Source: a virus. From it: 62,867 bases of DNA. The notes beneath the pieces are model-generated. The model searched no databases and was not told the origin of the DNA. It was given only the letters and a program-made list of their open reading frames with translations. Within the stretch, counting starts at the first letter, position 1, and every line of letters starts with the position of its first letter. The translations under genes and the position numbers were made by a program. Positions 11,506-57,043 of this stretch are shown one piece after another. The DNA is taken from IMG/VR virus record IMGVR_UViG_3300032050_000130, positions 1 through 62,867 of that record; one strand, 5' to 3'.

Positions 11506-11862
11506 TTATTTACTAGCTGATTCAGTTTGTTGAATTCTGCTTGGTGCACCTGGTTGATAAATAACAGTTCCTTGTTCTAAATCGATTTGGTGTCTAGGGT
11601 ATTTTTCTTCTAAAGAATCAACCACACCTTTTAACTCTCTACTCTTATCTTTAAAAGTATCCTCTGCTTTTTCAAGAATTTCATCTAATCTAACTAGTTC
11701 TGAATTTAATTCTTTTTTTCTAATATAGATTTGTCCGAAATCATTTATTAAAGCTGATAAATCACCATTTAATGATTTAATTTTATCAACTACTTCTGCT
11801 TCTAACTTTACAGTTTCTAAATCAATAGACTGCTTTTGTGGAATTTTATCTAATTCTGCCAT
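11506..11862 (-). CDS. Small coiled-coil phage protein, paralogue of 15451-15735
   Basis: This 118-residue protein is almost entirely helical, with heptad-like spacing from about residue 12 to 88, followed by IDLEQGTVIYQPG and a polar tail. It resembles the protein at 15451-15735, which shares the pattern of helix, GQ-x2-(I/V)R-x2-EL, a second helix, then ID-x3-GTV. Similar small coiled-coil proteins occur in T4-like phages of aquatic hosts. Function unknown. The two copies lie either side of the heptosyltransferase/GT4 genes. A 19-base repeat element lies 18 bases upstream of its ATG. Confidence 0.75.
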   Translation of the reverse strand: MAELDKIPQKQSIDLETVKLEAEVVDKIKSLNGDLSALINDFGQIYIRKKELNSELVRLDEILEKAEDTFKDKSRELKGVVDSLEEKYPRHQIDLEQGTVIYQPGAPSRIQQTESASK

Positions 11863-11879: not shown

Positions 11880-11898
11880 TTTGTATATATAAGTATAT
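11880..11898 (-). promoter_or_regulatory. 19-base repeated upstream element, copy 2
   Basis: This is identical to 8638-8656 and lies 18 bases upstream of the ATG at 11862. It touches the stop codon of the gene at 11898-12287, so it fills the whole gap between the two genes. Confidence 0.4.
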
Positions 11899-12287
11899 TA
11901 TTTTTTATTTTTTAAAATGTTAGTGGTACTAAACCCTTCGATTTTATTGAAAAATTCTATTTTTGGAATATATTCTACTCCTATTATTTCGTCATATTTG
12001 TAATCGTTACCAATAACCATAACATCAGGTCCCCATTCTTTGATTCTTTCTATCAATTCCGCATCGGAACTAAACGATACAACACTATGTACACTTTTTA
12101 TATTTGATAAAAATTCAATTCTATCGTTTAGGTTGTTATATGGTCTATTTTCTCCCTTTTTGGATTTTACTCTTTCATCCGTATCAATACCAACTCTTAC
12201 TTCTCCAAATGTTTTCGCAAATTCCAATAAACGTAGATGTCCAACATGAAGTATATCAAATGTACCATTTACCCAAACCTTATTCAT
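11898..12287 (-). CDS. Cytidylyltransferase-like nucleotidyltransferase, HldE C-terminal type
   Basis: This 129-residue enzyme has GTFDILHVGH at residues 8-17, the HxGH signature of the TagD/HldE/cytidylyltransferase family. NRPYN, a VIGNDYKYDE stretch and a late GFSTTNIL (the family STT/ISTT element) follow. It would attach a nucleotide to a phosphorylated sugar or polyol. Beside a heptosyltransferase-like gene, an ADP-heptose-forming role is the most natural inference, with glycerol-3-phosphate as an alternative substrate. The length fits a stand-alone domain. Its ATG overlaps the stop of the heptosyltransferase-like gene by one base, so the two are co-translated. Confidence 0.85.
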   Translation of the reverse strand: MNKVWVNGTFDILHVGHLRLLEFAKTFGEVRVGIDTDERVKSKKGENRPYNNLNDRIEFLSNIKSVHSVVSFSSDAELIERIKEWGPDVMVIGNDYKYDEIIGVEYIPKIEFFNKIEGFSTTNILKNKK

Positions 12288-13429
12288 TATAAAAATTTTT
12301 CCAATTCTTTAATTACCATTTGTCCTGTAATATATTTAGTACATTCAAATTGTCTATGTGTACCTTTATGGTCTGGACACCAGTTCCAATCCCCTGCATT
12401 CAATCTGATTCTATTGAAACAACCTTCACATTTCCCTTCAGGTGAACCTATTCGTACACAATCTTGCATTTCAGCCCATTTATAAGAAAATCCACTTACC
12501 AAAACGGTTGGTACTTCTAATGCCCAACTTAACCAACTTAATCCACTACCAATTCCAATAAATGCGTTTGAACGTTTTAATTCTTCCATTACATTTTCAA
12601 TTGGACCGTTTGGATGATGAATGATTCCTTTTGGAAGCTTATTACCCATATAATCATCACCTTCTTTTGATATAAGTCTTACGGTGTATCCTTTAACATT
12701 TAACCAATCAACAACTTCTTGCCATCCGGTTGGATTATTCCAAAATTTAGATTGTGCAGTTCCAAATACGCCAATACATACTTGTTTTTCTTTTTGTAAT
12801 GTTTTAACTTTTTTTAGTTTTGGCTTTACTTCAACATATTCCAATCCTAATATGTCAGAACACATTTGTTGTAATGTTACCGCTTTTGGGTCAATAGGAT
12901 TTTTAAAAAAGTTTACCGAACTATCTTCATTATAAAATAATCCGATTGTGTGCATGGAATATAAGTTTTCTACATTTGTTCCTGGTTTTACGAATTGTAG
13001 TTCTGGATATTGTGTTTCAAACATATCGTTCATAAATGTGGAAACTATTACCTTACATTTATGCTTTTTTCTAAATTCATCAACATATGGAAACCATGCT
13101 AAAGAATCTCCTAATGCTTTTGAATCTAATGCAATATAAACTCTTTTATCCTTTGCATCGTATGTATGTTCAAACCATAATTTTCCATTTTCAAATATTT
13201 CAATTTTCCATTCTACAAAATATTCAATACTACATCTTGCCCAACAATTATTTGTAATTTCTGATGTGAAGTGAACTTTATTAGTTTTATTATCAATAAA
13301 TTTTATAAGATAATTTGATACTTTCGGTCCTTTTATTTCTACAAAGGGGCCCCTAACAAAATGAAATAATACTCTGTTTTGTACTTCTACTTTATTATTT
13401 TTATTCTTTTTTAAATTATTATAAATCAT
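12287..13429 (-). CDS. Heptosyltransferase-like glycosyltransferase, TibC/AAH type
   Basis: This 380-residue GT9-like enzyme has an N-terminal beta-rich part with SEITNNCWARC, then YIALDSKALGDSLAWFPYVDEF at about residues 120-140, a Rossmann half with GVFGTAQSKFWNNP, and GIGSGLSWLSWALEVPTVLVSGF near the nucleotide-sugar site. Near the C-terminus four Cys are spaced C-x2-C-x13-C-x11-C, resembling the iron-binding finger of bacterial autotransporter O-heptosyltransferases (TibC, AAH). Those enzymes add heptose to Ser or Thr of secreted proteins. A start at 13438 would need TTG; the ATG at 13429 overlaps the previous stop by one base. The acceptor is unknown; a Thr-rich protein is encoded nearby. 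Confidence 0.85.
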   Translation of the reverse strand: MIYNNLKKNKNNKVEVQNRVLFHFVRGPFVEIKGPKVSNYLIKFIDNKTNKVHFTSEITNNCWARCSIEYFVEWKIEIFENGKLWFEHTYDAKDKRVYIALDSKALGDSLAWFPYVDEFRKKHKCKVIVSTFMNDMFETQYPELQFVKPGTNVENLYSMHTIGLFYNEDSSVNFFKNPIDPKAVTLQQMCSDILGLEYVEVKPKLKKVKTLQKEKQVCIGVFGTAQSKFWNNPTGWQEVVDWLNVKGYTVRLISKEGDDYMGNKLPKGIIHHPNGPIENVMEELKRSNAFIGIGSGLSWLSWALEVPTVLVSGFSYKWAEMQDCVRIGSPEGKCEGCFNRIRLNAGDWNWCPDHKGTHRQFECTKYITGQMVIKELEKFL

Positions 13430-15084
13430 TAGTCCCAAGTTTTTATTGTTTCATCAAGTAATGAATATCCTTCAACTTGCTTACTATACACTTTATTAGT
13501 AGTGTATCTTAATTCTTGATGGTGATAGAATATGTGGTTAAACCAAAGGTCACCAACATCCCATTCACAATCTTTTATTCTTTGATTCCACCATTCTCTA
13601 TCGGTATTCCTTAACAAATAACAATGTGCCAAATCTTGATTATGAGCGGTTTTACTAAAATCCTCATCCACTACTTCTTTATATTGACTTAAGTTATTTG
13701 CCAATCCAATATAGTAAACGTTATTCTTTTCTGCTATATCACATGCTTTATATACTATATCAACAAATTCTTCAACGGTTGAATAAATAAAACCATCTGC
13801 TTCAAACACTAATGTATAATCGTAATCTCTATTTAAATTTTCAACTGCCATTTTATGTGCCAAATAGCAACCATAATGTCTTCCAGTAATCCAACCCAAA
13901 CCAGCTCCAGGATATAATTCTCCAGGTTTATTATCTTTACTTAAATGGTCAGGTCTTCTACAATGTTCTTTTGGTGCAAAATCTTCATAAACTTCATTTA
14001 CAATTGGAACATAGTCCATTCCATAACTTTCCAATTGACGAATAGATTTCATACTAAATCGTTCTCTATCGTTGTATGGGGTTGTTAGTAAATGTTTTAT
14101 TTGTATTCTTGGCTTTTCTGAAAATCCTTCTTTAAATTCAGGTTTTAGATTTTCTATAAGAATTTGTTTAGTTGCATTTGTATCATCGGTTATATATGTA
14201 ACCAACGGATTGGCATCATATGTATCCAAATATGTATATAATTTTCTAAAGATGCATTTCATTTTAAAAGATAATGCTTCTTTTATAGAAAGAGGATTTA
14301 GTTCTAATATTGATGAAAAATAAAAAAGGTCACATGCCGCATAAAACGTATCAACATCATCACGCTCTCCCCAAACAATACAATTATCTGGTTTGTTTTT
14401 CATCAATGGTGACCAATATGTTTCGTAATTCATAGCCTGATTACCTACGAAATGAAATTTAATTTTATACTTTTGTAATTTTCTTGCTATTTCAAATATT
14501 TCCGCTTGGTTTTTTCCAGGCGAAAATAGCCCAACCATTAAAACATGTTTGTAATCTTTTTCTAATCCCAATTCTATTTGAGATTCCTCTTTATTAAATG
14601 AATATTCTTCTATTGGATATTCCCAAGTAGTTAATTCAACACCAAGATTAGATTCTTCAAATTTCTTTTTACTCCATTCCGATACCAACACATATCTATC
14701 TGGTTGATATACTATATCCGAAGGATTTGTAAACGAACCATGTGTTGTTGCAACAATATTATATTTTCTTTTATTATCAAATATTATATCCAACACATAT
14801 TCTGGAAGGTCAAACTGCGGTATCTCCTGAAAATGTATTATATCAGGATTAAAATTTTGAATTACATCTATAATTTTAGATTTATCTTCTCCCAATGTAT
14901 GAACGGGTACTAAACTTTTAATACGATTTTTTTGTACCACAAATGCAGTACCACCACTATTGTTTATTTCAACAACTTCAATTTGAAAATCAGATAAAAA
15001 ATGCTTTATCTGTTTATAGGTATATTGTGGTTGTCCACCCGTAGAAAGGTGCGGACATATGTAAAGTAACTTCTTTTTTTGCAT
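13429..15084 (-). CDS. Two-domain glycosyltransferase, GT4-like plus GT-A-like
   Basis: This 551-residue protein joins two glycosyltransferase-like parts. Residues 1 to about 310 form a GT-B enzyme of the GT4 kind, with YICPHLSTGGQPQYTYKQI at the start, VGLFSPGKNQAEIFE mid-way and an ELNPLSIKEALSF stretch near the donor site. Residues about 350-551 look like a separate GT-A or GT25-like domain, with an acidic VFEADGF resembling a DxD metal site. No signal peptide or membrane helix is seen, so it acts in the cytoplasm. It precedes the heptosyltransferase-like gene with a one-base overlap and probably extends the same glycan. Confidence 0.82.
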   Translation of the reverse strand: MQKKKLLYICPHLSTGGQPQYTYKQIKHFLSDFQIEVVEINNSGGTAFVVQKNRIKSLVPVHTLGEDKSKIIDVIQNFNPDIIHFQEIPQFDLPEYVLDIIFDNKRKYNIVATTHGSFTNPSDIVYQPDRYVLVSEWSKKKFEESNLGVELTTWEYPIEEYSFNKEESQIELGLEKDYKHVLMVGLFSPGKNQAEIFEIARKLQKYKIKFHFVGNQAMNYETYWSPLMKNKPDNCIVWGERDDVDTFYAACDLFYFSSILELNPLSIKEALSFKMKCIFRKLYTYLDTYDANPLVTYITDDTNATKQILIENLKPEFKEGFSEKPRIQIKHLLTTPYNDRERFSMKSIRQLESYGMDYVPIVNEVYEDFAPKEHCRRPDHLSKDNKPGELYPGAGLGWITGRHYGCYLAHKMAVENLNRDYDYTLVFEADGFIYSTVEEFVDIVYKACDIAEKNNVYYIGLANNLSQYKEVVDEDFSKTAHNQDLAHCYLLRNTDREWWNQRIKDCEWDVGDLWFNHIFYHHQELRYTTNKVYSKQVEGYSLLDETIKTWD

Positions 15085-15450: not shown

Positions 15451-15735
15451 CTATTCAGATACTTCAAACGTAACCGTACCATCATTTAAATCAATTTCCG
15501 CATTTTTATACTTTCTTTGAAGGTCTGATAATACATTCTCTAATTGAAGACTTTGGTTATCCAACTTATCTTCTATTTGTTTTTTTATTTCAAGTATTCT
15601 TTTAGATTCTAATTCTAGCTCTCTGCTTCTTACAGAAAGTTGTCCTAAATCAAAGATATAACCATTTACATCACTTTGAATGTTTTTGATATTATCTATA
15701 ATATCTTCTGCTATTTTTTCGGTTTTTGTTGCCAT
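15451..15735 (-). CDS. Small coiled-coil phage protein, paralogue of 11506-11862
   Basis: The ATG at 15735 gives 94 residues beginning MATKTEKIAED. The longer reading to 15843 would run through the upstream motif and into the radical SAM gene, so it is rejected. The protein is a single long helical, Glu/Leu/Lys-rich coil followed by IDLNDGTVTFEVSE. The pattern matches the protein at 11506-11862, so the two are probably duplicates. Function unknown; a small virion or assembly component is possible. Confidence 0.75.
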   Translation of the reverse strand: MATKTEKIAEDIIDNIKNIQSDVNGYIFDLGQLSVRSRELELESKRILEIKKQIEDKLDNQSLQLENVLSDLQRKYKNAEIDLNDGTVTFEVSE

Positions 15736-15748
15736 ATGATTGTTTATA

Positions 15749-15757
15749 TATAAATAT
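15749..15757 (-). promoter_or_regulatory. ATATTTATA motif, candidate phage promoter
   Basis: This exact copy, inside a longer alternating AT run, lies 13 bases upstream of the ATG at 15735. It helps fix that start. Confidence 0.45.
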
Positions 15758-15769
15758 ATATGTTTTAAA

Positions 15770-17767
15770 TTATTCAAAAATTGCAGAAGCACATCCTCTA
15801 CAAATCGTTTCATATGAGTTTTCAACCATTTTAACATGCTCATCAGTTCCCCAAAAATCTCTCAATTCCTGCGTTTTAAAATCCCCAAACTGCATTTCCA
15901 TTTCATAATCATTACAACAAAGGAACGCTTTTCCACTTGCATTTACATGAACCCACCCAATAGGTCTACCACCAACCTCTCTACCATTTCCACACCCAAT
16001 CACTTTTTTATCAGCAACATTTCTTTTCAAATTTCTTTCTATTGCAGGTTTGTTACTCATTACTTCATCCAGTAGTCCAGCTCTATCAATAAGATATGGT
16101 ACTGTAAAAATATTCACACCTGGAAATAATTCTTTCGCTTTTTTCTCTTGCTGAACTAACTCTCCATTTTGTACATCTAAGTCAATATCCTGTGGGAATT
16201 GTGGACCTTTTTGTAACCAACCGCCTTTCTCAACAAATGATAATTCATGCGAACCATTTATTTGAATTGAGAATGCTTTTCGTTTTACCATTTCTGGTAA
16301 TTGTTCTACTGCATATTTTATATTAGATATTAGTTTATCAAATTGCTTTATATTAATACCACTTCTCTTACTCCAAGTATCCGCATCAAATGCAGGTGTA
16401 TTTAGGCAGATACCACTTAAACAATCTTGATACTCTTTTAGTATATCAACTCTTTCCGGTGTTAGTGGTATTCCATTTGAAAGTACCATCGTTACTAATT
16501 TATACTTTCTACATATTTTAAGTATTTCTTCAAAGTGCGGATATAAAAGAACTTCGTTATAATGCGCTGTGTAAAATCCATTAAATGCTTTTGATACTAG
16601 TCCATCTGGTCTTTCTCTTTCATCGATAAGATTTTTAATTATCTTTTCAAATAGTTCAGGACTCATTACTTCTTTACCGTGGTCAGGATTTCCTTTATAT
16701 CTTACTGGGCAAAACCAACATTTAGCATTACAAACTCCATATGGGTCTATTTGTAAGTTTGTTATTTTATAATCATTAAATTGAGTTTGAACTAAACTCA
16801 TTTTTGGGTGTTCAATTAATATAGATGTTTTTGCGGTTTCACAAATTTCTTTCCAATAATATGAAGAAGCAAACTTATCACTTATATCTAACTTCGCATT
16901 ATAAGGAAGTTTATCCGTGTATGCCCCTTTATAAAATAAACCTTTAGCATACGAATGTACATGAGTTGAATCTGCCACAACTCCTGCATTATGTAGTATA
17001 GGATATTTTTCTACTTCCGAAATATCACCAGTTACCCAACCAAAATCCAATCGTTCATCTACTATTGTTTCATGTCCCGCTAACCAAGCATTCCAAAGTA
17101 AACTCCACATACCCGCAGTCCATTTTTGTATTGGATAATCGTATTCAGTTTTTTTAACATGCAAATGTTCAGTATCACAAAAATATTTATATAAATTTAT
17201 ACTATCAGTTTCTACTTTATCCCAAAATTCATATGTAGTGTTTTTAACAATATATTGCGCTCCACCTGAATTATTATTTAGTAGCTTTGGTATTAGTGGG
17301 TCTATTCCAACTATTTCACACATTTTTTTATATGTATGGTCACCTTTACCGATTATATAATCATAATTTATATAAAATTTAGTATTAGATAAGTACCAAC
17401 TATTACCTTTTATCATATCATCAAATTTCGGTGGTTTTGTTAAAACTATATCCGAATCATGTAAAAATAAAACATCATCTTGAATTTCTGGCCTTGCAAC
17501 AATATGTTGCTTCATTAAATTAAAATAAATAGATGGTTGATAACCTTTATCGTTTCTAGTATCATTATAAAAGAAAAATCGTATAGTATTGTAATGTAAC
17601 ATTAATTTCTTCCATTCATCCGGAACAATACCATTTTCTATACCACATACAATATCAATATAATTTGGATTTACTCCCATTTTTTTGAAGTTGTTAATTA
17701 GAACTTCAACTTGCCAAGTGTAATAAGTTATTGCCGGTTGACAACAAATGTAACGAATTTTTTTCAT
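15770..17767 (-). CDS. Glycosyltransferase-like and radical SAM/SPASM-like fusion protein
   Basis: This 665-residue protein has two parts. Residues 1 to about 320 resemble a GT-A nucleotide-sugar transferase, with DDVLFLHDSDIV as a DxD-like metal site near residues 100-110 and a later GGAQYIVKN stretch. Residues about 330-665 are a radical SAM domain with the cluster motif C-x3-C-x2-C (Cys346, Cys350, Cys353). More Cys lie at about 592, 617-618 and 654-657, in a pattern like a SPASM auxiliary cluster domain. Such enzymes modify peptides or sugars by radical chemistry. The substrate is unknown; the location points to glycoprotein or glycan modification. The fusion is unusual for a phage. Confidence 0.85.
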   Translation of the reverse strand: MKKIRYICCQPAITYYTWQVEVLINNFKKMGVNPNYIDIVCGIENGIVPDEWKKLMLHYNTIRFFFYNDTRNDKGYQPSIYFNLMKQHIVARPEIQDDVLFLHDSDIVLTKPPKFDDMIKGNSWYLSNTKFYINYDYIIGKGDHTYKKMCEIVGIDPLIPKLLNNNSGGAQYIVKNTTYEFWDKVETDSINLYKYFCDTEHLHVKKTEYDYPIQKWTAGMWSLLWNAWLAGHETIVDERLDFGWVTGDISEVEKYPILHNAGVVADSTHVHSYAKGLFYKGAYTDKLPYNAKLDISDKFASSYYWKEICETAKTSILIEHPKMSLVQTQFNDYKITNLQIDPYGVCNAKCWFCPVRYKGNPDHGKEVMSPELFEKIIKNLIDERERPDGLVSKAFNGFYTAHYNEVLLYPHFEEILKICRKYKLVTMVLSNGIPLTPERVDILKEYQDCLSGICLNTPAFDADTWSKRSGINIKQFDKLISNIKYAVEQLPEMVKRKAFSIQINGSHELSFVEKGGWLQKGPQFPQDIDLDVQNGELVQQEKKAKELFPGVNIFTVPYLIDRAGLLDEVMSNKPAIERNLKRNVADKKVIGCGNGREVGGRPIGWVHVNASGKAFLCCNDYEMEMQFGDFKTQELRDFWGTDEHVKMVENSYETICRGCASAIFE

Positions 17768-17784
17768 AGTAATTAATTAATGTT

Positions 17785-19152
17785 TTATAAACACGATGTA
17801 CAGCTTACTCCTGTGGTTACCGTTCCAAAGAACAATGGTAAATTAGCTGGCCCAGGGTAACCACCAAGTCCAACCTGACTCCACGTTTCTCCACCAAACG
17901 ATATACATCCAGGTGTACTTCCTGCTATACCTTCATAGGTATATTGTGCTCCACCATACGCACCTACACCGGTACACGGTTCGTAATCCCAATATTCATA
18001 GACTATTGCAGCTGTAGTTGTTGTAGTTGGTGCTGCTGGACACGAAGTACAATCAGTTCCCACATAAGTAGAACCATCACCCAAATCAATATCAAATGAA
18101 GGACCAAACGTAGGCTCAAGTAATCTAACACAGGTATATGGTGTAGGAGTTTCAAATACACTAAACGCTACTTGGTCAACACTAAATCTTACAACCAAAG
18201 TAGTTGCCGAATAACAATATTCAGCACTCCAATAGAAATATGATGGTGCAGCCGTTGTAGTTGTAGTTGTTGTAGGTGCTTCCGTTGTAGTTGTAGTTGT
18301 TGTAGGTGCTTCCGTTGTTGTTGTAGTTGTTATAGGTGCTTCCGTTGTTGTTGTAGTTGTAGTAGTTGTTGTAGGCGCTTCCGTTGTAGTAGTTGTTGTA
18401 GGCGCTTCCGTTGTAGTAGTTGTTGTTGGTGCTTCAGTTGTAGTAGTTGTAGTTGGCGCTTCCGTTGTAGTAGTTGTTGTTGGTGCTTCAGTTGTAGTAG
18501 TTGTTGTTGGTGCCGCAGTTGTAGTAGTAGTTGTTGTTGGTGCCGCAGTTGTAGTAGTTGTTGTAGTTGTTGTAGTTGTAGTAGTTGTAGTAGTTGTTGT
18601 AGTTGTTGTAGTTGTAGTGGTTGTAGTAACCGATAAACACGTACCCTTATCATCTAAAGTTCCATTATCACTAATAATAAAATAATTAGTTCCATCTGAA
18701 TAATATCCATTGGGTGCGGGAATTGTCAATCCACTATTAGTAAATATTTGTAGTGTATTTTGTAACACAGTTCCTCCAAACGAATAATAAGTTGTTGGTG
18801 ATGATGTATAATCGTAACAAGAATTTGCGGCAGAAGAAGCATGATATCCCAAGCTAAACGATGAAGGAGCCAAAGTTGTAGTTGTTGGTGCTGGTGGTTC
18901 TGGTGGTGCTGATGTGGTTGTTGTGGTTGTGAATGTAATAGATGCTGATAAACAATCACTGGTCGCTGTACCAAATGTTTCAACAACCGAACCTCCAGGT
19001 ACGGTATATTCATCAGTTTGTGCGGAGAATATTATTGAACCAATTTTAGAAGGTACAAAAACAGTTACTTCATTTCCTTCACATTCAGTCCATGTAACAT
19101 CGCCAGATGTTCCATTTGGTAAGGTTGCTCTATATAGTGTTGATGATGGCAT
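17785..19152 (-). CDS. Thr-rich mucin-like secreted-type or virion surface protein
   Basis: This 455-residue protein has three or four short Cys-containing beta-rich modules joined by Thr tracts. Residues about 75-92 hold a short Thr/Pro linker. Residues about 176-302 are nearly pure Thr, broken by EAP, AAP or IT, ending at SYFYWSAEYC. A third short Thr run lies near residue 380. Each module has Gly/Tyr-rich sequence and paired Cys, and the protein ends TSCL. No signal peptide is seen, so it is more likely a virion decoration or fibre than an exported protein. The Thr/Pro tract is what O-glycosylated mucin-like stalks look like, and glycosyltransferase genes are adjacent. Function unknown. 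Confidence 0.75.
   Translation of the reverse strand: MPSSTLYRATLPNGTSGDVTWTECEGNEVTVFVPSKIGSIIFSAQTDEYTVPGGSVVETFGTATSDCLSASITFTTTTTTSAPPEPPAPTTTTLAPSSFSLGYHASSAANSCYDYTSSPTTYYSFGGTVLQNTLQIFTNSGLTIPAPNGYYSDGTNYFIISDNGTLDDKGTCLSVTTTTTTTTTTTTTTTTTTTTTTTTTTTAAPTTTTTTTAAPTTTTTTEAPTTTTTTEAPTTTTTTEAPTTTTTTEAPTTTTTTEAPTTTTTTTTTTEAPITTTTTTEAPTTTTTTTEAPTTTTTTTAAPSYFYWSAEYCYSATTLVVRFSVDQVAFSVFETPTPYTCVRLLEPTFGPSFDIDLGDGSTYVGTDCTSCPAAPTTTTTAAIVYEYWDYEPCTGVGAYGGAQYTYEGIAGSTPGCISFGGETWSQVGLGGYPGPANLPLFFGTVTTGVSCTSCL
18245..18627 (-). repeat. Thr-codon tandem repeat tract
   Basis: This region encodes the main poly-Thr stalk. The plus strand repeats units such as gttgtagtagttgttgttgg, with gcttc or gccgc spacers that encode the EAP and AAP steps. 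Mixed ACT, ACA and ACC codons and near-identical units of about 24-30 bases suggest growth by slippage or unequal recombination. The stalk length is expected to vary between relatives. Confidence 0.85.
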
Positions 19153-19164
19153 TTATATTTTTTA

Positions 19165-19623
19165 TTAAAAAGGTGATTCTCCTAATATATCAGTAGGCCA
19201 TGTTTGTTTTAATTGAATTGCGGTTGTCACATCTGAAAAATCCATATTTGGCAAATCTCTTAATTGTTGTTTTTTTGTAACTATTTCTTGAATTAATGTT
19301 TGATTTCCGGTTTCTAATGCTCTCATATATTGTAAATCTAAATCCGGAAATAATTCACTTCTTTTATATCTCAAATAATTTAAAAATAATTCTTTTGCCT
19401 TTTCTAAATTTAAAGATGGAATCGCAGTTGAACCATTCTCATCATTAAAATTAAAATCGTAACAAAAATTAAATGAATAATCAATTTCAGAATCATCATA
19501 CATAAAAACGTAATTTGAATCCGATGGTATTACTTTTTTGATTATAAAATCAATAGTTTCTTCATTCGGTGATATCCACTTAATATCACCATTTTTTTCA
19601 CTTATAATTAATTTTGGTTTCAT
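19165..19623 (-). CDS. Tail fibre assembly chaperone-like protein
   Basis: This 152-residue protein lies 15 bases after the giant fibre gene. Its C-terminal half contains RSELFPDLDLQYMRALETGN followed by KKQQLRDLPNM, which resembles the Phage_tail_APC-type fibre assembly chaperones, where an RQ-x-LRD pattern is typical. The N-terminal half is beta-rich and acidic. Small chaperones coded next to a long fibre gene help fold or trimerise the fibre tip, so the position supports the call. The family is judged by pattern only. Confidence 0.65.
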   Translation of the reverse strand: MKPKLIISEKNGDIKWISPNEETIDFIIKKVIPSDSNYVFMYDDSEIDYSFNFCYDFNFNDENGSTAIPSLNLEKAKELFLNYLRYKRSELFPDLDLQYMRALETGNQTLIQEIVTKKQQLRDLPNMDFSDVTTAIQLKQTWPTDILGESPF

Positions 19624-19638
19624 AAATTATTCATTTTT

Positions 19639-22600
19639 TTATCTTGCCAATACTACAAAATCAACAAATTCAGGTGTCCAATGTCCAGCAAGGTTACCGC
19701 CAATATAGGTTGTTACAATACCAGGACTAGTATGACTAGGTCTTTCTATTCTAAAAGAAAATCCACTAATACTTTTTCCAGTAATTACGGCCATATTTCC
19801 AACTTCTTGGCTAGCATATGCTACGTTTGACGTTGTGGTTTGAACAATATAATCCGTAGAATCCATTGGATTGGTAAAAATTACATCATAAATATTAAAT
19901 GAACCTACAGCTAATGTACTACTAATATTGTAACGATTTAAAATAGTATAGTTTGCAGCATTTGTAATACCACCACCATTGTATCTAATTGTTCCAAATG
20001 CTTTTACTGCAGATGGATTTCCATATCCATTACTATATTTACTAATCGACCTATCGACCATTAAACTACCTGTGATTTCGGTTGAAAAGTTATAAGAACC
20101 ACTTACACCATCTCTTACCCTCAAATACTTATCATCTGCCAATACGGCCTGGAAGCCACCACCATTTATAATAGTACCCGCTGATATTGTTTTTATTGTT
20201 ACAGTTCCAGTAGATGCTGCAAACAAGCTTGTATCTACTTCCGAATCAAATCCATACGGAGGATACTGAGACGGGTCAGATGTATCATTACTATGCGCGT
20301 ATGCGTATCCAACTAAAGTTAAATAATAAGTTACTCCAGATTGTAAATCTGCCAATATTGTCATTTTTGTTGCCGGCAAATAAGAAGTTTGAGATCCTGG
20401 ATAATAAGATATTGTATATTGAAATCCGTTCCATTCATAATATTGATTTACCGTACCTTGTGCAGATGCAATTGCATAGTTTGAAGTTTCTACATAATTA
20501 GTAAATGGCTGTGGATAATGTCCTCCTGTTGTGAGAATCAAACGTAAGTATAAAGTCCCATCCGCTGAACCATTTGCGGTTACATAATTATTATAACTGA
20601 ATGGTAAATTATATGTTATAACATGTTGACCGGCTGCTTGAGTGGTGAACGAACCATTTGAACTTGGTATAATATTATAATCATATGCAATAGTTCCACC
20701 ATAATATGGGTCAAATGTTCCATCATTTGGTACACCATTAGTTTGATTTGATGAAGTAGTATATGTTGGTAAAATAGCATTTGGATATGTTATGCCAGTT
20801 GGTTCTGGTAATGTTAATTTTGTATTTGCGAAAAATCTTAAACTACCTGCGCCATCAAATACCGCAATTGATTCGGATGGTTCTGAATATAATCTAATAT
20901 TTTGGTCTGCTGATATTATTGATCCAGGTCCTATAGTCCATCCACCAATTGTACCATCATTTGAATTAATAGAACCATTTATAGATAAATCTTCACCGTT
21001 CCAAAGAAGCGAACCAGATACTCCCTTTAATGATAATTTCGAAACCCCTTGGTCAAATCCCATAAAAATTCCAGTATTATCATAACCTTGAACTTGAGAT
21101 TCTGTAACCCAGTTACCAGGACCAATACTAGAGCTTATTTGTCCAATAGATAAATAAGGATTAGCATTAGAACCACTTTCATTTGCATTTAAAACAATAA
21201 GTGAATTTGCTCCTCTTGCACCGATATTAATAGTTTTATCAACATATTGTTCTACTGCAAATAATACATCGGTTGCTACTGAACTGAATTGTGCACCAAA
21301 CGAAGTCCAGTTTGTATTTCCGCCACCAGGATAATTCCAAAATGTACCGGCACCTTGAGTACCCGCACTTCCATTCAATCCCGTATTATTTGTGAGATAG
21401 TATGTACTACCATATTTAGTAATATCTTTTCTTTCGGTTGTATGAAAATATCTTTCATTTGGATTAAATAATCCCCTATATACAACACCAGGACCAGGAC
21501 CCCCAGCAGTACCAGTTGTGCCCGCGGTACCAGTGGTGCCGGATGTGCCAGTTGTTCCAGATGTACCAGCTGCAGCGGATACTGCCCAAGTATTGGTTGC
21601 ATCCGGTGGATAACCGGTATTAATATTGTTATCGTTTGTAGAAGTATGTGTATTTGAATTTATCCATGTAGATGATGCATATCTTACAGTATCGTCTGGA
21701 TAATAGGTTACCCCAGAAGCCCATATACCTCTATAACTTCCTTCAGGAATACCAGGTTGTCTTTGACGTATAGAACCAACTATAGTCAATTGGTCACCAT
21801 CCCAAAACATTCCCTTACCAGATGTACCAGTTGTTTTAATTGAGAAACGTCCTGTTGTACCATTTGCACCGTCTTCATAAACACCCATAAAAATACCGGG
21901 TCTATTATACCCAATTACACCCGGTCCGCTAATTGAAGTTCCTGTACCCGATGTTCCTTGTGTACCCGTTTGGCCTATGGCAATATATGGGTCAGTTCTA
22001 CCACCCGCTAATACAATATTGGCAAAAGCACCAGTTCCATCTTTAGTACCAACATTTAAAGTATTCTTTACATATGATTCTTCAAATATCGCAATCTTGG
22101 CCGATACAAAAAATTCTTCTTGTCCTAAATACTGCCAATATGTTGTATCAGTATATGGTGCCGAACCATCTGGTTGTTGTGCTCCAACCGGTGTTCCAGG
22201 TCCACTACCTGTTATAGCAGCCCAATAGTGTGTTTCTTTATTTATTGTTGCTGGGTCAGGCCAAATTACAGCATCTCTTCTTTGGTTTGCTATTTCAGAT
22301 ATATAATCAATAGTTGAACTCCATATACCTCTCATCACAATACCAGGACCAGTATTACCTTCATATACTACTGATAGAGAAAGAGTTTTATAAAGCGTTT
22401 CTCTACCTTCACAATCTATTTGGAATATAATTTCACCGGATGAAATTGTTTCAGGACTTGACCAATTACTTATACCTGCAAAAGATGCCGGACCACCCGA
22501 AACATGAGAACCAGCCGTTAATCCACCGGCCAAAGTTAAATGTCCAGAGTATGATAGAATACTTACTCTACATTGATTTGGATATCCGGTTACACCATAT

Positions 22601-25600
22601 GCATCTAATTGCCCTCCGCTAAAAGTTGAAACATTTGTTAATTCTAAATCTCCTCTAAAAACTCTTATTGTAGTTGTAGATAAATCAAATTCGACTTCTC
22701 CAGAAACTCTATATATAATTCCAGCGTTTTCACTGGATAAGTTTGCACTATAAGGTGCCGGTGGTGTAAATTGAACTGCTAATGATTGTGTTACAAAATC
22801 AATTTGTCTATTTTTTTCATAATCGATTTTATAAATAATTTCAGCACTATGATTAACCGCAGGTGCGTACCAACTAACTATATCGTTAATTGCCGCAGGG
22901 TTACCTATCAATCTATTGGGTGGTGCAACATTAATCCAAGAAGATGTAGTAAAAATTGATGCAGAATAATATCCAAGGTTACCAATTAAATTTCCTAAAT
23001 AATCATTAACTTCTTGCGATATAACGTATGATGATGTATGTGCTAATTGAGTTGTACCTTTAAATGCCGAAATTTGCATTCCACTTCCCGTAAACTGCGT
23101 TGTCCACAAATCAGCGGTTATGGATGCATTGGTATTTGTTGCAGAGTATTTGTATGCATCTGCCCCACCCTTAATACCGGCTATTGTTAATTGTGCTTCT
23201 GCTTTTATTATTGATGGTGGTAATGGAACTGATGGAGTTACAGTTGGTGCCGCACCATCGGTTAATTTTACTTTCCATGTTTTGTTTTCACCAGGTCCTG
23301 CAGCATCACCACCACTTATTCCGCTAAATTCACAAAACGGCGGTGTTCCTTCCAATACACTAGGCCCTGCATAAAATGTTTCACTACCATCCGATTCTAC
23401 ATAATACAAATATGCATTCGGTCCATCAGTTTGACCAGGTATGTACGAACCTGTTGTGTTGAATGCAGTTACGGTAAGTGTAACATCACCAACATCAGTA
23501 TATCCATCTCTATCGTAATTAATTGTAGCCGTTGATGCTCTAAAATCCAATGAACGTGCATTTGGTGGTGCTACGTTTTTTGTAAATGTTTGAGTCCTAG
23601 TAAAAATAGAAGATGTATATTGATGCCCGCTCCCCAATGCAAATGGATATACTTGAATTGTATATAAAGCACTTGCAGAAACATATGGTGCATCAAACCT
23701 ATTATAATTTATAGTAGCTGTACTTAATGAAGATGATGATAATGAACCCGTTCTTATATTCCAAACTCCAGAATTACGAGTTTCTATTGAATTTATTCTC
23801 CAAGTACCCGGTGCAGTTGAACGCGTTGTAAAGGTAAGAAAATCATCACCTTCTTTAACAGTCAATGTAGTGTTCGTACTTGCATATGAAGAAATATAAC
23901 CAACTTCATCCGCAGGTATTGCCACCGATGTTGGTGATATTACAATCTGAATCGGTGGAGGTCCATCTAATATTTTTGTAAAATACTGATACACACTCGC
24001 TGTATAAACCGATGATGTGTAATACGGTTGAATCTCTAATGGAAATTCAATACTTCCACTTAAATTAGTCATATTAGATGATGCACTAAAAATAAGTGAA
24101 TGAGTATAGTTGTTATCAAATCTTATATTACCATTTGTTATATTATTTGCTACAATAGATGCTGTTGCAATATGGAATGTTCCAGGAAATCTACTTCCAG
24201 TAAATAACAAATATCTAGACCCTTGCTTCAATCTAATTTCACCAGTAGATGGTTTATAATCATTTACAATACCTCTTGAGTTTGCATTAAGATTTACATT
24301 CGCAGGAACTATTTCAAATACTATACTTTCATCTCCAGGTTTACCTTCTGGAACAATTGTAAACGTTTTATTAATGCTTACTGATTCCGAAGAATATGGT
24401 TCAATATAAGTCCAATTTATTGTAAGAGTTTTACTTTGAGATAAAGGTGTTCCTACAAATTGATTTTCTAAAGTAGAATTTATAATGTAGTTATTATCAT
24501 CAGTTGCACTTATTTTAATATCAGAATTTACACTCTGAGTCATATAATATACCCAATACTCTGGTACAAAATCTGAATTTATAGACATCGATGGGTAAAC
24601 CATAACTGATGCCGAAATTGGATTTGAACTTGTACCCCTTCTATAAAACGATGCAGTTGCACTTGCAGATGGTGGAGTAAATACTTTTGATAATCTTGGA
24701 TTTATAGTAAATGCATCAGCATCGTAGGTTACAAATCCAGCATCAATACCATCTAATAAATCCGTTAATGTTAATGTTGTATAAATTGATGCAGTTACAT
24801 TAGGATTTGTTGGAGTAGGTTCTGAACCCGATGCTATTAAGTAAATAGTTCTTTGCCCATCTATTGAATCTCTATTAAAAATTGCATTATAATCAAGTTC
24901 TCCAGAACCGGTAACACCTGGATAAATTCCTTTTACAAATCCACTGGCAGATGCATCGGTCAATGTTACATAATATGAACCAGAAGCAACGTATAATCTA
25001 TTACTAGAACGGCCGTATGGCAATCCACTTCTAATATCTAATTCGTTTATTCCATCTATTCTTACTGCCTGAACTTCAAGTGAACCAGATGGGTCATTAT
25101 TTCTAATTACAGTTCCTCTATATGGTCTTATCTCATAATTTACACCACCCTTACCATCTACAACTCTTGTTATGATAATGGAATCATTTATTCCTTCACA
25201 CTCACCGGTAAATTCTATATATTGAACAACAATATCTTCGTTAGAACCTGTAAAGTTTGCAACAGTTAAAGTTAATAAATCAGTTTCTCTATTCAAAAGT
25301 AATCCAGGCACTTGTCCCCCAACGTATTGAGAAGAAGATAATTCATTTCCAAAAAAATCAAAAGAACGAGATGTATATGTTACCGAACCGGTTAAATAGC
25401 TTTTTATTACATCAATCGAAATTACGGTTGGTGGAATAGGGTTACCATTTCCGGATCCAGAATCAAATTGGAAATATAAAGAAGATGGAACTAGTTGTAA
25501 ATCTTTATTAATTACATTTAAATTACCACCATCAAATGTTTTACTTTCTTCAACAACTACAGGAATATAATTGTTATTAATATCGTAAAACTGAAATCTA

Positions 25601-27177
25601 AAATCAAATGTTTCTCTCGGTAATGTTCTCGGTATTGGTTGAATAAATGAGATTTCATCCGGAGAAAATGCAGTTTCTTGTGATGCTCTTAAACTTACAT
25701 CCGATATATACCATGCATTTCCTTTAACTTCAAAAAATAATTTTACATCCGATAAATCTTCCGCTTTAAAGTTTGCAGTTATTTGAGATTTTTGTAATAA
25801 ACTATTATCGGAAGTTACATTTAAAATATTTTGCTTTGTGCCTACATTTGTTATTACATTGTTATATGTAGACTGTTTAGAACCACTTAAATATACCAAA
25901 AGAGTATCAGTAGTATTAATTGGACTACCCGCTCTAACGTTAAATGTTAAACTATATTCACTATCAGCATTAATATCTAAAGATTTAGTTGTATAGAATA
26001 AATTTGTTCCTGAACTGTTTAATTTAACCGAGTTGTATAGATACGTTTGATTAAATTCAGTAGATAAATTATTAGAAGAAGTTACCCAATAATTTTTAAA
26101 ATTAAATAAATCAAATCCACCATAATATTCTTCATTCTTAACAGTTGTTTCTAAATCTCTTAATATTTCATTAGACTCTAACTGAATTTCTTGTATAAAT
26201 TGATAATCGGAAAGGTCTGATTGAGATTTTCTGAATATCTTTACTCTAGCCACATCCCCTACGAATGTAGTTAAATCCGATAATGTTATTTTTGCAAATG
26301 AACCGGTAAGTGCGGTTTTTAAATTATCTAGTCCCTCAATATAATTAAATGATGCGGTATATCTTTGATTTGAAAAATCTGATACCAATCCATTTACGGT
26401 ATAAGGATTAGTAATTGTTAAATCAGTTTTACTAATTATATCATCTGCTTGTGAAAAGAAATTAAGGTCAGTAAATTCAATTGTTGTTCCAACTACCGAA
26501 CCCGTCCATGCACCACCATCGTTAATTTGTACAAGATAACTTGTTGGTTGGCTAAAATTTGTAAGGGGAGTACCGGCGGCGGGTACTTGTGAAAAACCAT
26601 CTACATGCCCTTTTTGTGTTATTGTAGAGCTAATATTAGAATAAATAGGTTTTACTATTTCCGTAATAGATACGTTTGGTCTTTTATAAAATCTTACCTT
26701 ATCCTCATTCGATAATAATCTATTAATTTTAAATGGTTTTTCCCATTTTACATTATAAACATTTTTCCACTCATCAGGTACATCTCTTACAACACCACCG
26801 TCATCTACATAACTTTTCAACTCACCGAGAATAGTAATCTTTGCTTCACCTATCGGAGTATCTTCGTATATATAAACTGCTATTAGTTTAGAAGTACCTT
26901 CATAGTATTCAGGTACACCATTACCAGGTTCATAATAAACAGGATTGCCAGCAACATCTAATATTTGTATTTTTATTTCAGTTGTTTCTTTTAGATATTC
27001 AGACCCTTCTATTAAAAATCCATTTTTACCACCAGTAAACGTATCGTTAAATTCGGTAATTTTAAAATATGTGGAATTCGGACTGTCATCTATCAGAAAT
27101 GTTTGAAAAGAACTTAATGTCTGTACTGGATTTAAATTACTTTTCTGACCATCTGCGTATTTTTTTATTCTTGGCAT
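19639..27177 (-). CDS. Giant tail fibre or adhesin-like virion protein
   Basis: This 2512-residue protein is the largest in the window. The N-terminal 170 residues form a conserved-looking attachment domain with FTGGKNGFLIEGSEYL and PEYYEGTSKLIAVYIYED. Residues about 180-1500 are beta-rich with repeated Ser/Thr/Asn-rich modules like Ig-type domains. At about 1735 and 1869-1897 there are short collagen-like G-x-y runs (GTSGTTGTSG). Near these are repeats such as YRGIWASGVTYYPDD and VYRGLFNPNERYF that resemble carbohydrate-binding W/Y-rich modules. The last 100 residues are probably the receptor-binding tip. It is divergent from the plus-strand gene and directly followed by its likely chaperone. 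Confidence 0.85.
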   Translation of the reverse strand: MPRIKKYADGQKSNLNPVQTLSSFQTFLIDDSPNSTYFKITEFNDTFTGGKNGFLIEGSEYLKETTEIKIQILDVAGNPVYYEPGNGVPEYYEGTSKLIAVYIYEDTPIGEAKITILGELKSYVDDGGVVRDVPDEWKNVYNVKWEKPFKINRLLSNEDKVRFYKRPNVSITEIVKPIYSNISSTITQKGHVDGFSQVPAAGTPLTNFSQPTSYLVQINDGGAWTGSVVGTTIEFTDLNFFSQADDIISKTDLTITNPYTVNGLVSDFSNQRYTASFNYIEGLDNLKTALTGSFAKITLSDLTTFVGDVARVKIFRKSQSDLSDYQFIQEIQLESNEILRDLETTVKNEEYYGGFDLFNFKNYWVTSSNNLSTEFNQTYLYNSVKLNSSGTNLFYTTKSLDINADSEYSLTFNVRAGSPINTTDTLLVYLSGSKQSTYNNVITNVGTKQNILNVTSDNSLLQKSQITANFKAEDLSDVKLFFEVKGNAWYISDVSLRASQETAFSPDEISFIQPIPRTLPRETFDFRFQFYDINNNYIPVVVEESKTFDGGNLNVINKDLQLVPSSLYFQFDSGSGNGNPIPPTVISIDVIKSYLTGSVTYTSRSFDFFGNELSSSQYVGGQVPGLLLNRETDLLTLTVANFTGSNEDIVVQYIEFTGECEGINDSIIITRVVDGKGGVNYEIRPYRGTVIRNNDPSGSLEVQAVRIDGINELDIRSGLPYGRSSNRLYVASGSYYVTLTDASASGFVKGIYPGVTGSGELDYNAIFNRDSIDGQRTIYLIASGSEPTPTNPNVTASIYTTLTLTDLLDGIDAGFVTYDADAFTINPRLSKVFTPPSASATASFYRRGTSSNPISASVMVYPSMSINSDFVPEYWVYYMTQSVNSDIKISATDDNNYIINSTLENQFVGTPLSQSKTLTINWTYIEPYSSESVSINKTFTIVPEGKPGDESIVFEIVPANVNLNANSRGIVNDYKPSTGEIRLKQGSRYLLFTGSRFPGTFHIATASIVANNITNGNIRFDNNYTHSLIFSASSNMTNLSGSIEFPLEIQPYYTSSVYTASVYQYFTKILDGPPPIQIVISPTSVAIPADEVGYISSYASTNTTLTVKEGDDFLTFTTRSTAPGTWRINSIETRNSGVWNIRTGSLSSSSLSTATINYNRFDAPYVSASALYTIQVYPFALGSGHQYTSSIFTRTQTFTKNVAPPNARSLDFRASTATINYDRDGYTDVGDVTLTVTAFNTTGSYIPGQTDGPNAYLYYVESDGSETFYAGPSVLEGTPPFCEFSGISGGDAAGPGENKTWKVKLTDGAAPTVTPSVPLPPSIIKAEAQLTIAGIKGGADAYKYSATNTNASITADLWTTQFTGSGMQISAFKGTTQLAHTSSYVISQEVNDYLGNLIGNLGYYSASIFTTSSWINVAPPNRLIGNPAAINDIVSWYAPAVNHSAEIIYKIDYEKNRQIDFVTQSLAVQFTPPAPYSANLSSENAGIIYRVSGEVEFDLSTTTIRVFRGDLELTNVSTFSGGQLDAYGVTGYPNQCRVSILSYSGHLTLAGGLTAGSHVSGGPASFAGISNWSSPETISSGEIIFQIDCEGRETLYKTLSLSVVYEGNTGPGIVMRGIWSSTIDYISEIANQRRDAVIWPDPATINKETHYWAAITGSGPGTPVGAQQPDGSAPYTDTTYWQYLGQEEFFVSAKIAIFEESYVKNTLNVGTKDGTGAFANIVLAGGRTDPYIAIGQTGTQGTSGTGTSISGPGVIGYNRPGIFMGVYEDGANGTTGRFSIKTTGTSGKGMFWDGDQLTIVGSIRQRQPGIPEGSYRGIWASGVTYYPDDTVRYASSTWINSNTHTSTNDNNINTGYPPDATNTWAVSAAAGTSGTTGTSGTTGTAGTTGTAGGPGPGVVYRGLFNPNERYFHTTERKDITKYGSTYYLTNNTGLNGSAGTQGAGTFWNYPGGGNTNWTSFGAQFSSVATDVLFAVEQYVDKTINIGARGANSLIVLNANESGSNANPYLSIGQISSSIGPGNWVTESQVQGYDNTGIFMGFDQGVSKLSLKGVSGSLLWNGEDLSINGSINSNDGTIGGWTIGPGSIISADQNIRLYSEPSESIAVFDGAGSLRFFANTKLTLPEPTGITYPNAILPTYTTSSNQTNGVPNDGTFDPYYGGTIAYDYNIIPSSNGSFTTQAAGQHVITYNLPFSYNNYVTANGSADGTLYLRLILTTGGHYPQPFTNYVETSNYAIASAQGTVNQYYEWNGFQYTISYYPGSQTSYLPATKMTILADLQSGVTYYLTLVGYAYAHSNDTSDPSQYPPYGFDSEVDTSLFAASTGTVTIKTISAGTIINGGGFQAVLADDKYLRVRDGVSGSYNFSTEITGSLMVDRSISKYSNGYGNPSAVKAFGTIRYNGGGITNAANYTILNRYNISSTLAVGSFNIYDVIFTNPMDSTDYIVQTTTSNVAYASQEVGNMAVITGKSISGFSFRIERPSHTSPGIVTTYIGGNLAGHWTPEFVDFVVLAR

Positions 27178-55846: not shown

Positions 55847-57043
55847 TTAATTACCTTTTGATGGAAATCTAGTCCATCCATTTACCCATAGAGGTTTATC
55901 TAATTCAGGTATAACCACATCTATCTCTTTATTACTCTTTGAAAGTGCTAATGTTTTCAATTGGTCATTTGTTAAGATTGTAGTTGCTTTACTGATAAAG
56001 TTTAAAGTAGGATTAAATGTTCCTACTGAATTGTTTTCAAATACCGAAACGCCATCTTTTACGAATTGTGTAGTTTCATTACTTTCCAAACTTAAACCAC
56101 CTTTCATCCATCCCCAAATTACACTATTCTTCATTGTGAATTGAGTTGCTCTCCTAAATCTCAAACCTAAATTGTGGTTTGCTAATGCGGTAGATACATT
56201 CGGTCCAACTAAAATCATATTATAAAGTTTCGGATGTGTGTATGGAGTTGCAGTTGAACCTGTTCCATCGTTATCACATTCTACACCATTTCCAGCATCA
56301 CCATTATCTACGAATTGTGGGTCTCTCTTTGCTACACCATTCGTAATTGTTCCAGTAAATCCAAAATCAAAATCAAAATCATCATCTGCGGTTGCAAATG
56401 CATATAAGTTTCTTGGTGATACAGTTCCACCAAAGAATTCAAATGCATCATCGTTAGCATAGATAGTTTGAACATTCTCAATGATTGTTCCACTACCAAC
56501 ACCACCTAATGTTAGTGCGTTTATTTCCGAGTTTGGCATTGCTGCAATTCCTGCATATTCAATTCTTACAAAACGAAGAACACCACTATTATCTAAATCG
56601 TTTGTTCCACCAAATGGTCTACCTATACCACCTTCGATTGTTGGTTCTGATGTTCTATTGGTTTTTGCTCTACCCAATATAACAATACCACCCCAATCAC
56701 CAGGTGCCTTTTCACCATTTGCTCTACCTGATGTAAATACAATTGGTTTTGTTGCAGTTCCTTCCGCAATTAATTGTGCTCCTCTTTCGATGCACAATGC
56801 TCCCTTTTCAGCTATATCAGATACGATTGTTGTACCCGGTTGAATGATAAGTTTTGCTCCATCGGTTACATATACATAACCTTTCAATGTCCAAACTTTA
56901 TCCGCAGTTAAAGTTGTTGTTGTATTAATGTTGCCGGTAAGTGTAGTTGATGTTGGAATGTTAATCGGTCCATCACCACCACCTAATTCTTTTTCGCAAC
57001 TCAATAATCCAAATGCTAAAATAGCTACTAATAGTTTTCTCAT
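55847..57043 (-). CDS. Outer-membrane lipoprotein paired with the TonB receptor
   Basis: This 398-residue protein has a lipoprotein signal with lipobox LLSC at about residues 13-16, followed by EKELGGGDG. Acidic and Lys residues just after the Cys are like Bacteroidetes signals for surface export. The rest is repetitive and beta-helix-like (AKLIIQPGTTI-like strands, GSGTIIENVQTIYANDDAF, TMKNSVIWGW). Such lipoproteins are coded beside TonB-dependent receptors in Bacteroidetes and may help capture the ligand. The ATG overlaps the receptor stop by four bases, so they are coupled. Host origin is likely; the ligand is unknown. Confidence 0.8.
   Translation of the reverse strand: MRKLLVAILAFGLLSCEKELGGGDGPINIPTSTTLTGNINTTTTLTADKVWTLKGYVYVTDGAKLIIQPGTTIVSDIAEKGALCIERGAQLIAEGTATKPIVFTSGRANGEKAPGDWGGIVILGRAKTNRTSEPTIEGGIGRPFGGTNDLDNSGVLRFVRIEYAGIAAMPNSEINALTLGGVGSGTIIENVQTIYANDDAFEFFGGTVSPRNLYAFATADDDFDFDFGFTGTITNGVAKRDPQFVDNGDAGNGVECDNDGTGSTATPYTHPKLYNMILVGPNVSTALANHNLGLRFRRATQFTMKNSVIWGWMKGGLSLESNETTQFVKDGVSVFENNSVGTFNPTLNFISKATTILTNDQLKTLALSKSNKEIDVVIPELDKPLWVNGWTRFPSKGN

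Follow-up and report, generated by a model that had tools for sequence, protein, structure and literature searches.

A predicted phage enzyme joining a GT-A glycosyltransferase to a BtrN-like radical SAM domain beside a threonine-tract protein gene

The window (the whole 62,867-nucleotide stretch of IMG/VR record IMGVR_UViG_3300032050_000130 that was analyzed) is a contig of a T4-like phage with a gp20-type portal, a large terminase, and a baseplate wedge, and signs point to a Bacteroidota host. At 15770..17767 its minus strand carries an open reading frame of 665 amino acids, present as the sequence-only reading had claimed, while the plus strand over the same positions contains many stops. 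A chance or misread frame is ruled out by conservation in relatives; because full-length relatives at 64–92% identity occur in independent contigs, the frame lies far beyond chance. The product is a predicted bifunctional protein consisting of a GT-A glycosyltransferase and a BtrN-like radical SAM/Twitch enzyme. Specifically, residues 1–320 (16808..17767, minus strand) form an N-terminal glycosyltransferase domain of family phrog_4417, with a DxD motif at D104/D106 and with H259 in a conserved HNAGV motif, and residues 329–665 (15773..16783, minus strand) form a radical SAM core with a Twitch-type C-terminus, in which C346/C350/C353 are assigned to the SAM cluster and C592/C617/C656/C659 to one auxiliary cluster. 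The relevant cysteines lie at 346, 350, 353, 592, 617, 618, 656, and 659; the first three and those at 592 and 617 had been listed correctly before, but the last pair is Cys656/Cys659 and not 654–657. An AlphaFold2 model of the whole protein, from an alignment of 47 phage sequences, has a mean pLDDT of 93.3, and its pTM of 0.61 leaves it uncertain how the two domains sit relative to each other.

Upstream of the enzyme gene, ending 17 bases before it, is a gene for a 455-residue Thr-tract (mucin-like) protein, the probable substrate (17785..19152, minus strand). Beyond it lie a gene for a 152-residue phage protein of phrog_20196 (19165..19623, minus strand), which is a conserved neighbor at loci L001 and L003–L005, and one for a 2512-residue protein (19639..27177, minus strand) that has no Pfam or PHROG match and is probably tail fibre-like, judging from position and composition. 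Downstream on the same strand are genes for a GT4-type glycosyltransferase with an extra C-terminal domain (13429..15084; Glycos_transf_1, 2.1e-13), a protein O-heptosyltransferase of the Aah/TibC family with a C-terminal cysteine finger (12287..13438; TIGR04414, 3.4e-86, 289.5 bits against a cut-off of 200), and a heptose-1-phosphate adenylyltransferase-like nucleotidyltransferase (11898..12287; rfaE domain II-like, 2.1e-28, below the curated cut-off), so that the sugar-handling neighbors noticed in the sequence-only reading are indeed present. At the related fusion loci L004 and L006, the cassette also includes a PfkB-like kinase. Together, the heptosyltransferase, the adenylyltransferase-like protein, and this kinase make heptose a candidate sugar in the glycan. 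Relatives of the heptosyltransferase/HldE-like pair (11898–13438) are found in Microcystis phage Mel-JY01 and in huge uncultured phages. On either side of the sugar cassette lies a small protein (11506–11862 and 15451–15843, minus strand); the two are related to each other and are probably coiled-coil. Elsewhere in the window, and likewise on the strand that encodes the phage genes, is a TonB-dependent receptor (57040–59289, minus strand; Plug 2.2e-8, OMP_b-brl_3 1.7e-25), an unusual outer-membrane receptor for a phage to carry and a hint of a Bacteroidota host.

Residues 5–310 match phrog_4417 at 1e-61 over family positions 2–290 of 293; PHROGs labels the family as of 'unknown function', and we know of no member with a tested enzymatic function. 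According to the structural model, this half is a GT-A glycosyltransferase fold with a DxD metal/nucleotide motif. The motif reads H-D104-S-D106, with D104 and D106 invariant across 15 aligned relatives, and the model of residues 1–321 superposes on glycogenin with Z 15.3 (rmsd 3.4 over 227 residues), followed by Skp1 galactosyltransferase (Z 14.9), UGGT (Z 14.9), and LgtC (Z 14.8). A Pfam scan gave no match to the GT8 family (Glyco_transf_8) at E≤1, making the domain GT8-like in fold only, and a profile of the transferase found no meaningful match among PDB sequences; the glycosyltransferase fold therefore rests on the predicted model. A DxD-type transferase half had been proposed from the sequence, with the glycosyltransferase fold as the point on which the proposal was staked. 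AlphaFold2 followed by structure search returned a glycogenin/LgtC-like match, and the predicted structure contains two separate folds that each fit their family (Z about 15 for the GT-A half, Z 19 for the BtrN-like half). The phage domain thus resembles the retaining GT-A enzymes glycogenin, LgtC, and UGGT in predicted fold and DxD motif, and glycogenin transfers sugar to protein, as proposed below for the phage domain, but it lacks a sequence match to them in Pfam or PDB profiles and its acceptor differs.

The phrog_4417-type half occurs alone in 74 named phage records and in at least 558 stretches in IMG/VR. Members from Enterococcus, Lactobacillus, Lactococcus, and Staphylococcus phages occupy the same place after a Thr-tract gene, but they lack the radical SAM half and are annotated as hypothetical. 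Elsewhere the same transferase has other fusion partners, namely one or two methyltransferases at L099, L100, L107, and L114 and a GT2-like domain at L135, and a separate methyltransferase-like gene often follows the transferase gene, although some of these matches are weak. Locus L141 is also among those with a methyltransferase or GT2-like fusion partner. Because the transferase is fused elsewhere to methyltransferases or to a second transferase, the radical half appears to occupy a glycan-decorating slot.

The strongest clue to function is the Thr-tract neighbor, which was absent from the sequence-only reading. The 455-residue protein is 33% threonine, with a longest run of 27 and repeated EAP/AAP-TTTTTT units; its threonine codons are mixed (ACA/ACT/ACC/ACG), which rules out a simple DNA repeat. 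Counting distinct loci and taking a run of at least five threonines in the gene just upstream as the criterion, we found such a run at 11 of 13 loci with both transferase and radical SAM and at 46 of 64 transferase-only loci, versus 1 of 37 radical SAM-only loci (Fisher's test against the last group, 2e-8 and 2e-12, respectively, values that are indicative as the sequences are related). Genes downstream of the transferase have such runs in 0–1% of cases. Near phage tail regions, however, Thr-rich fibre genes are frequent in general (10–28% at positions −2 to −5), and where fibre genes lie the signal is therefore partly a regional one. At Bacillota loci the run is present upstream in 32 of 35 and lies 1–12 residues from the C-terminus; oligo-Thr-tailed proteins directly upstream of a phrog_4417 transferase are seen at L173–L231 (Bacillota genomes) and in phages L082–L084. 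Among named phages, the upstream protein is an annotated major tail protein in Enterococcus phage phiFL1A (C-terminus TTTTTTTQASSK) and in Arcanobacterium phage TPWB06 (C-terminus TTTTTTTTTP), and in Lactobacillus phage iLp84 it is a 125-residue protein, 34% threonine, that adjoins the capsid gene. At L092, a true fusion, the 5 kb upstream contain no Thr-tract gene; L016 also has no such gene upstream, but this locus is at a contig edge. Chromosomal relatives of the transferase in Bacteroidota (Chitinophaga, Pedobacter) mostly lack upstream Thr runs and may be a different, non-phage subfamily. The transferase family phrog_4417 tracks Thr-tract proteins, and from this linkage we infer that phrog_4417 transferases O-glycosylate the Thr tracts of the neighboring virion protein; the product of 17785..19152 would sit on the virion.

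In the C-terminal half, Pfam Radical_SAM (PF04055) matches residues 342–489 at 3.3e-10 (40.8 bits against a cut-off of 29.5) and SPASM (PF13186) matches residues 605–659 at 7.1e-7, above its cut-off. Both the CX3CX2C motif (C346, C350, C353) and the auxiliary C592/C617/C656/C659 are invariant in an alignment of 40 sequences. The four auxiliary cysteines are the only invariant ones of this kind among the 40, and the full seven-cysteine SPASM motif is absent, although PF13186 scores above its cut-off. Instead, the half is Twitch-type, with one auxiliary cluster whose four cysteines align with those of BtrN, the 2-deoxy-scyllo-inosamine dehydrogenase of the butirosin pathway, which has the same three SAM-cluster and four auxiliary-cluster cysteines. 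A profile of the 40 sequences has BtrN as its best match (4.1e-14), with both sets of cysteines aligned, and BtrN is also the closest fold to residues 329–665 of the predicted model (Z 19.0; rmsd 3.1 across 227 residues), with BtrN, anSME, and MoaA folds spanning Z 15–19. The top three Foldseek families are DesII, BlsE, and BtrN, in that order. DesII, a TDP-sugar radical SAM lyase/deaminase, and BlsE, of the blasticidin S pathway, perform radical chemistry on sugars; DesII acts on a TDP-sugar, BlsE on a glucuronate conjugate, and BtrN on an aminocyclitol. The phage half differs from DesII and BlsE, with which it shares about 14% sequence identity and which are stand-alone antibiotic-pathway enzymes, and from BtrN in its length (about 340 residues versus about 250), its fusion to a glycosyltransferase, and its location in a phage, next to a Thr-tract gene. 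Butirosin or aminocyclitol genes, which would be expected beside a BtrN equivalog (2-DOIA dehydrogenase), are absent from the neighborhood, which consists of phage and glycosylation genes. The spirochaete spiro-SPASM family (TIGR04321) was rejected as parent fusion, the match covering only model positions 233–398 and scoring 33 bits where the cut-off is 250; TIGR04321 also matches 11 of 14 control genomes, and the score therefore reflects the radical SAM core only.

By a narrow balance of probability, we read the protein as a two-domain protein-glycosylation enzyme that O-glycosylates the mucin-like Thr-tract protein, taken to be on the virion, and alters the sugar by radical chemistry. With a metal at D104/D106 and a nucleotide sugar as donor, the transferase half would O-glycosylate threonines in the upstream protein, and phrog_4417 relatives probably carry out the same reaction on tail and head proteins with Thr tails. 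SAM would be cleaved at the C346/C350/C353 cluster of the radical SAM half, which would abstract hydrogen from a sugar C-H, on either the newly attached or the donor sugar; following the BtrN precedent, the auxiliary cluster may take up the electron, giving an oxidized (keto) or epimerized sugar. The downstream GT4 enzyme, heptosyltransferase, and ADP-heptose-type enzyme would extend or feed the glycan. A virion surface protein would thereby carry a coat of edited glycan, which could plausibly serve in host binding, as a decoy, or for protection; the phage thus probably covers its particle with an unusual sugar that has been chemically edited.

The neighbor context and the nearest folds make the sugar a likelier radical target than the peptide. 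Modification of the peptide itself, in which the radical SAM half would oxidize, epimerize, or cross-link a threonine or other residue of the Thr-tract protein that the transferase half glycosylates, is unlikely, although the upstream protein would be a natural common substrate for both halves. The folds of the peptide-acting SuiB, anSME, and SkfB (Z about 16) are nearly as similar to the model as those of the sugar enzymes, which we count against our main reading, EpeE is also close in fold, and the weak NCBIfam matches include peptide maturases. However, the half has four invariant auxiliary cysteines, as in BtrN, versus seven in full SPASM maturases; its profile matches EpeE far more weakly than BtrN; the Thr tract goes with the transferase and not with the radical SAM protein, as the single case among 37 radical SAM-only loci indicates; and the N-terminal half is a glycosyltransferase rather than a peptide-recognition domain. 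No short precursor gene was recognized at the locus, where small open reading frames were covered in part, and assignment as a full SPASM/RiPP maturase was lowered on the auxiliary cysteines and the glycosyltransferase N-half.

For a sugar target, both orders of action, before or after transfer, fit. Editing of the nucleotide-sugar donor before transfer, comparable to DesII on its TDP-sugar and with the fusion coupling donor making to transfer, is unlikely. DesII is the top Foldseek match, and radical SAM-only relatives lie beside nucleotide-sugar enzymes: they adjoin genes for an epimerase and a UDP-sugar dehydrogenase, as well as a PF11397 GlcNAc transferase-like protein and DXD sugar transferases, with carbamoyltransferase, sulfotransferase, 2OG oxygenases, and methyltransferases as further neighbors. 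Against this, the methyltransferases or second transferase that fill the same slot on the transferase generally act once transfer has taken place. The best profile match, BtrN, has a free cyclitol as its substrate, and the evidence therefore does not tell the two orders apart.

Phage glycosyltransferases are commonly read as modifiers of host surface polysaccharide, as for pelagimyophages (PMC7029224), and the LPS-type names in the cassette (heptosyltransferase, rfaE-like) would suit such a role in superinfection exclusion, with the Thr-tract neighbor a coincidence. We consider this improbable: the upstream partner of the transferase is a Thr-tract protein across phyla and a C-terminal-tailed major tail protein in named phages, and the heptosyltransferase belongs to the protein-modifying Aah/TibC family. 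Bacterial Aah/TibC enzymes act on autotransporter adhesins. The member at 12287–13438 is likewise of a protein-O-glycosylating family (the autotransporter heptosyltransferases of TIGR04414) and lies in the same cassette as the fusion, but it is phage-borne and has a Thr-tract neighbor.

Returning to the two-domain glycosylation enzyme, a search for homologous fusions recovered full-length relatives at 64–100% identity in viral contigs (L001–L008, L092, and L094), with both active sites intact. The fusion is thus not unique to this phage: other uncultured phages carry either the fusion or its two-gene counterpart. The radical SAM half had no match at 1e-5 among 50,697 named phage records, so that the fusion is found only in uncultured viral contigs. 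At L009–L013 and L016–L018 the transferase and the radical SAM protein are encoded by separate nearby genes, mostly adjacent, transferase first, and some with short overlaps. In trees, the transferases of these split pairs fall in a clade apart from the fusion transferases, a single lineage (with modest internal support) contains the radical SAM proteins from fusions and split pairs alike, and the transferase-only relative L090 is nested among fusions. These trees suggest that the two partners were joined, exchanged, or split apart on more than one occasion, a history that favors a functional link between them. An accidental fusion, in which two neighboring genes lost a stop codon and the halves work independently, is very improbable, for despite the overlapping split versions, the nested L090, and the uncertain domain placement (pTM 0.61), both active sites are conserved across the fusions and the same pair is present with two transferase lineages. 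That one enzyme attaches the sugar and then edits it radically is a reasonable inference, and it is strengthened by the split-gene pairs, the module swapping, and the sugar-acting nearest folds.

Other relatives vary further. The fusion at L007 (7755–8000) has an additional N-terminal cysteine-rich (zinc-ribbon-like) segment of about 80 residues, and L060 and L061 (7998–11010) carry three tandem radical SAM paralogues near a carbamoyltransferase. Radical SAM relatives at L019–L029 (51–54% identity; two copies on one 206-kb contig) lie mostly beside ribonucleotide reductase and replication genes and possibly have a role outside glycosylation. That some radical SAM-only relatives sit beside such genes, without sugar genes, counts against our main reading.

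To our knowledge, the mycobacteriophage glycosylation system has no radical SAM partner; the likeness to it is one of general kind. In that system (Che8 and relatives), phage-encoded glycosyltransferases decorate major virion proteins, as PMC11256854 reports, citing Freeman et al. 2023, so that the general kind of modification is already known. The open-licence literature searched contained no description of a radical SAM/glycosyltransferase fusion or of the Thr-tract rule, and a published account elsewhere could be missed. More broadly, and with somewhat less than even confidence, we suggest a widespread phage system in which virion proteins marked by oligo-Thr tails or tracts are O-glycosylated by a dedicated, adjacent phrog_4417 enzyme and swappable modules (methyltransferase, second transferase, or radical SAM) finish the glycan, in this lineage a radical SAM domain acting on the protein-bound sugar within the same polypeptide.

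These observations make a 'hypothetical' phage protein family testable, since an upstream Thr run, placed at the C-terminus in Bacillota loci, predicts the enzyme as well as its substrate, and the signal extends to cultured phages such as Enterococcus phage phiFL1A. An oligo-Thr tail directly upstream of phrog_4417 would give a rule for predicting, across phyla, which phage virions are glycosylated. Should the radical half edit the sugar once it is attached, the reach of radical SAM chemistry would extend to protein-bound glycans on virus particles, and such a step within the transferase polypeptide would be a new kind of protein glycan modification; both host recognition and the way immune systems see phages would be affected.
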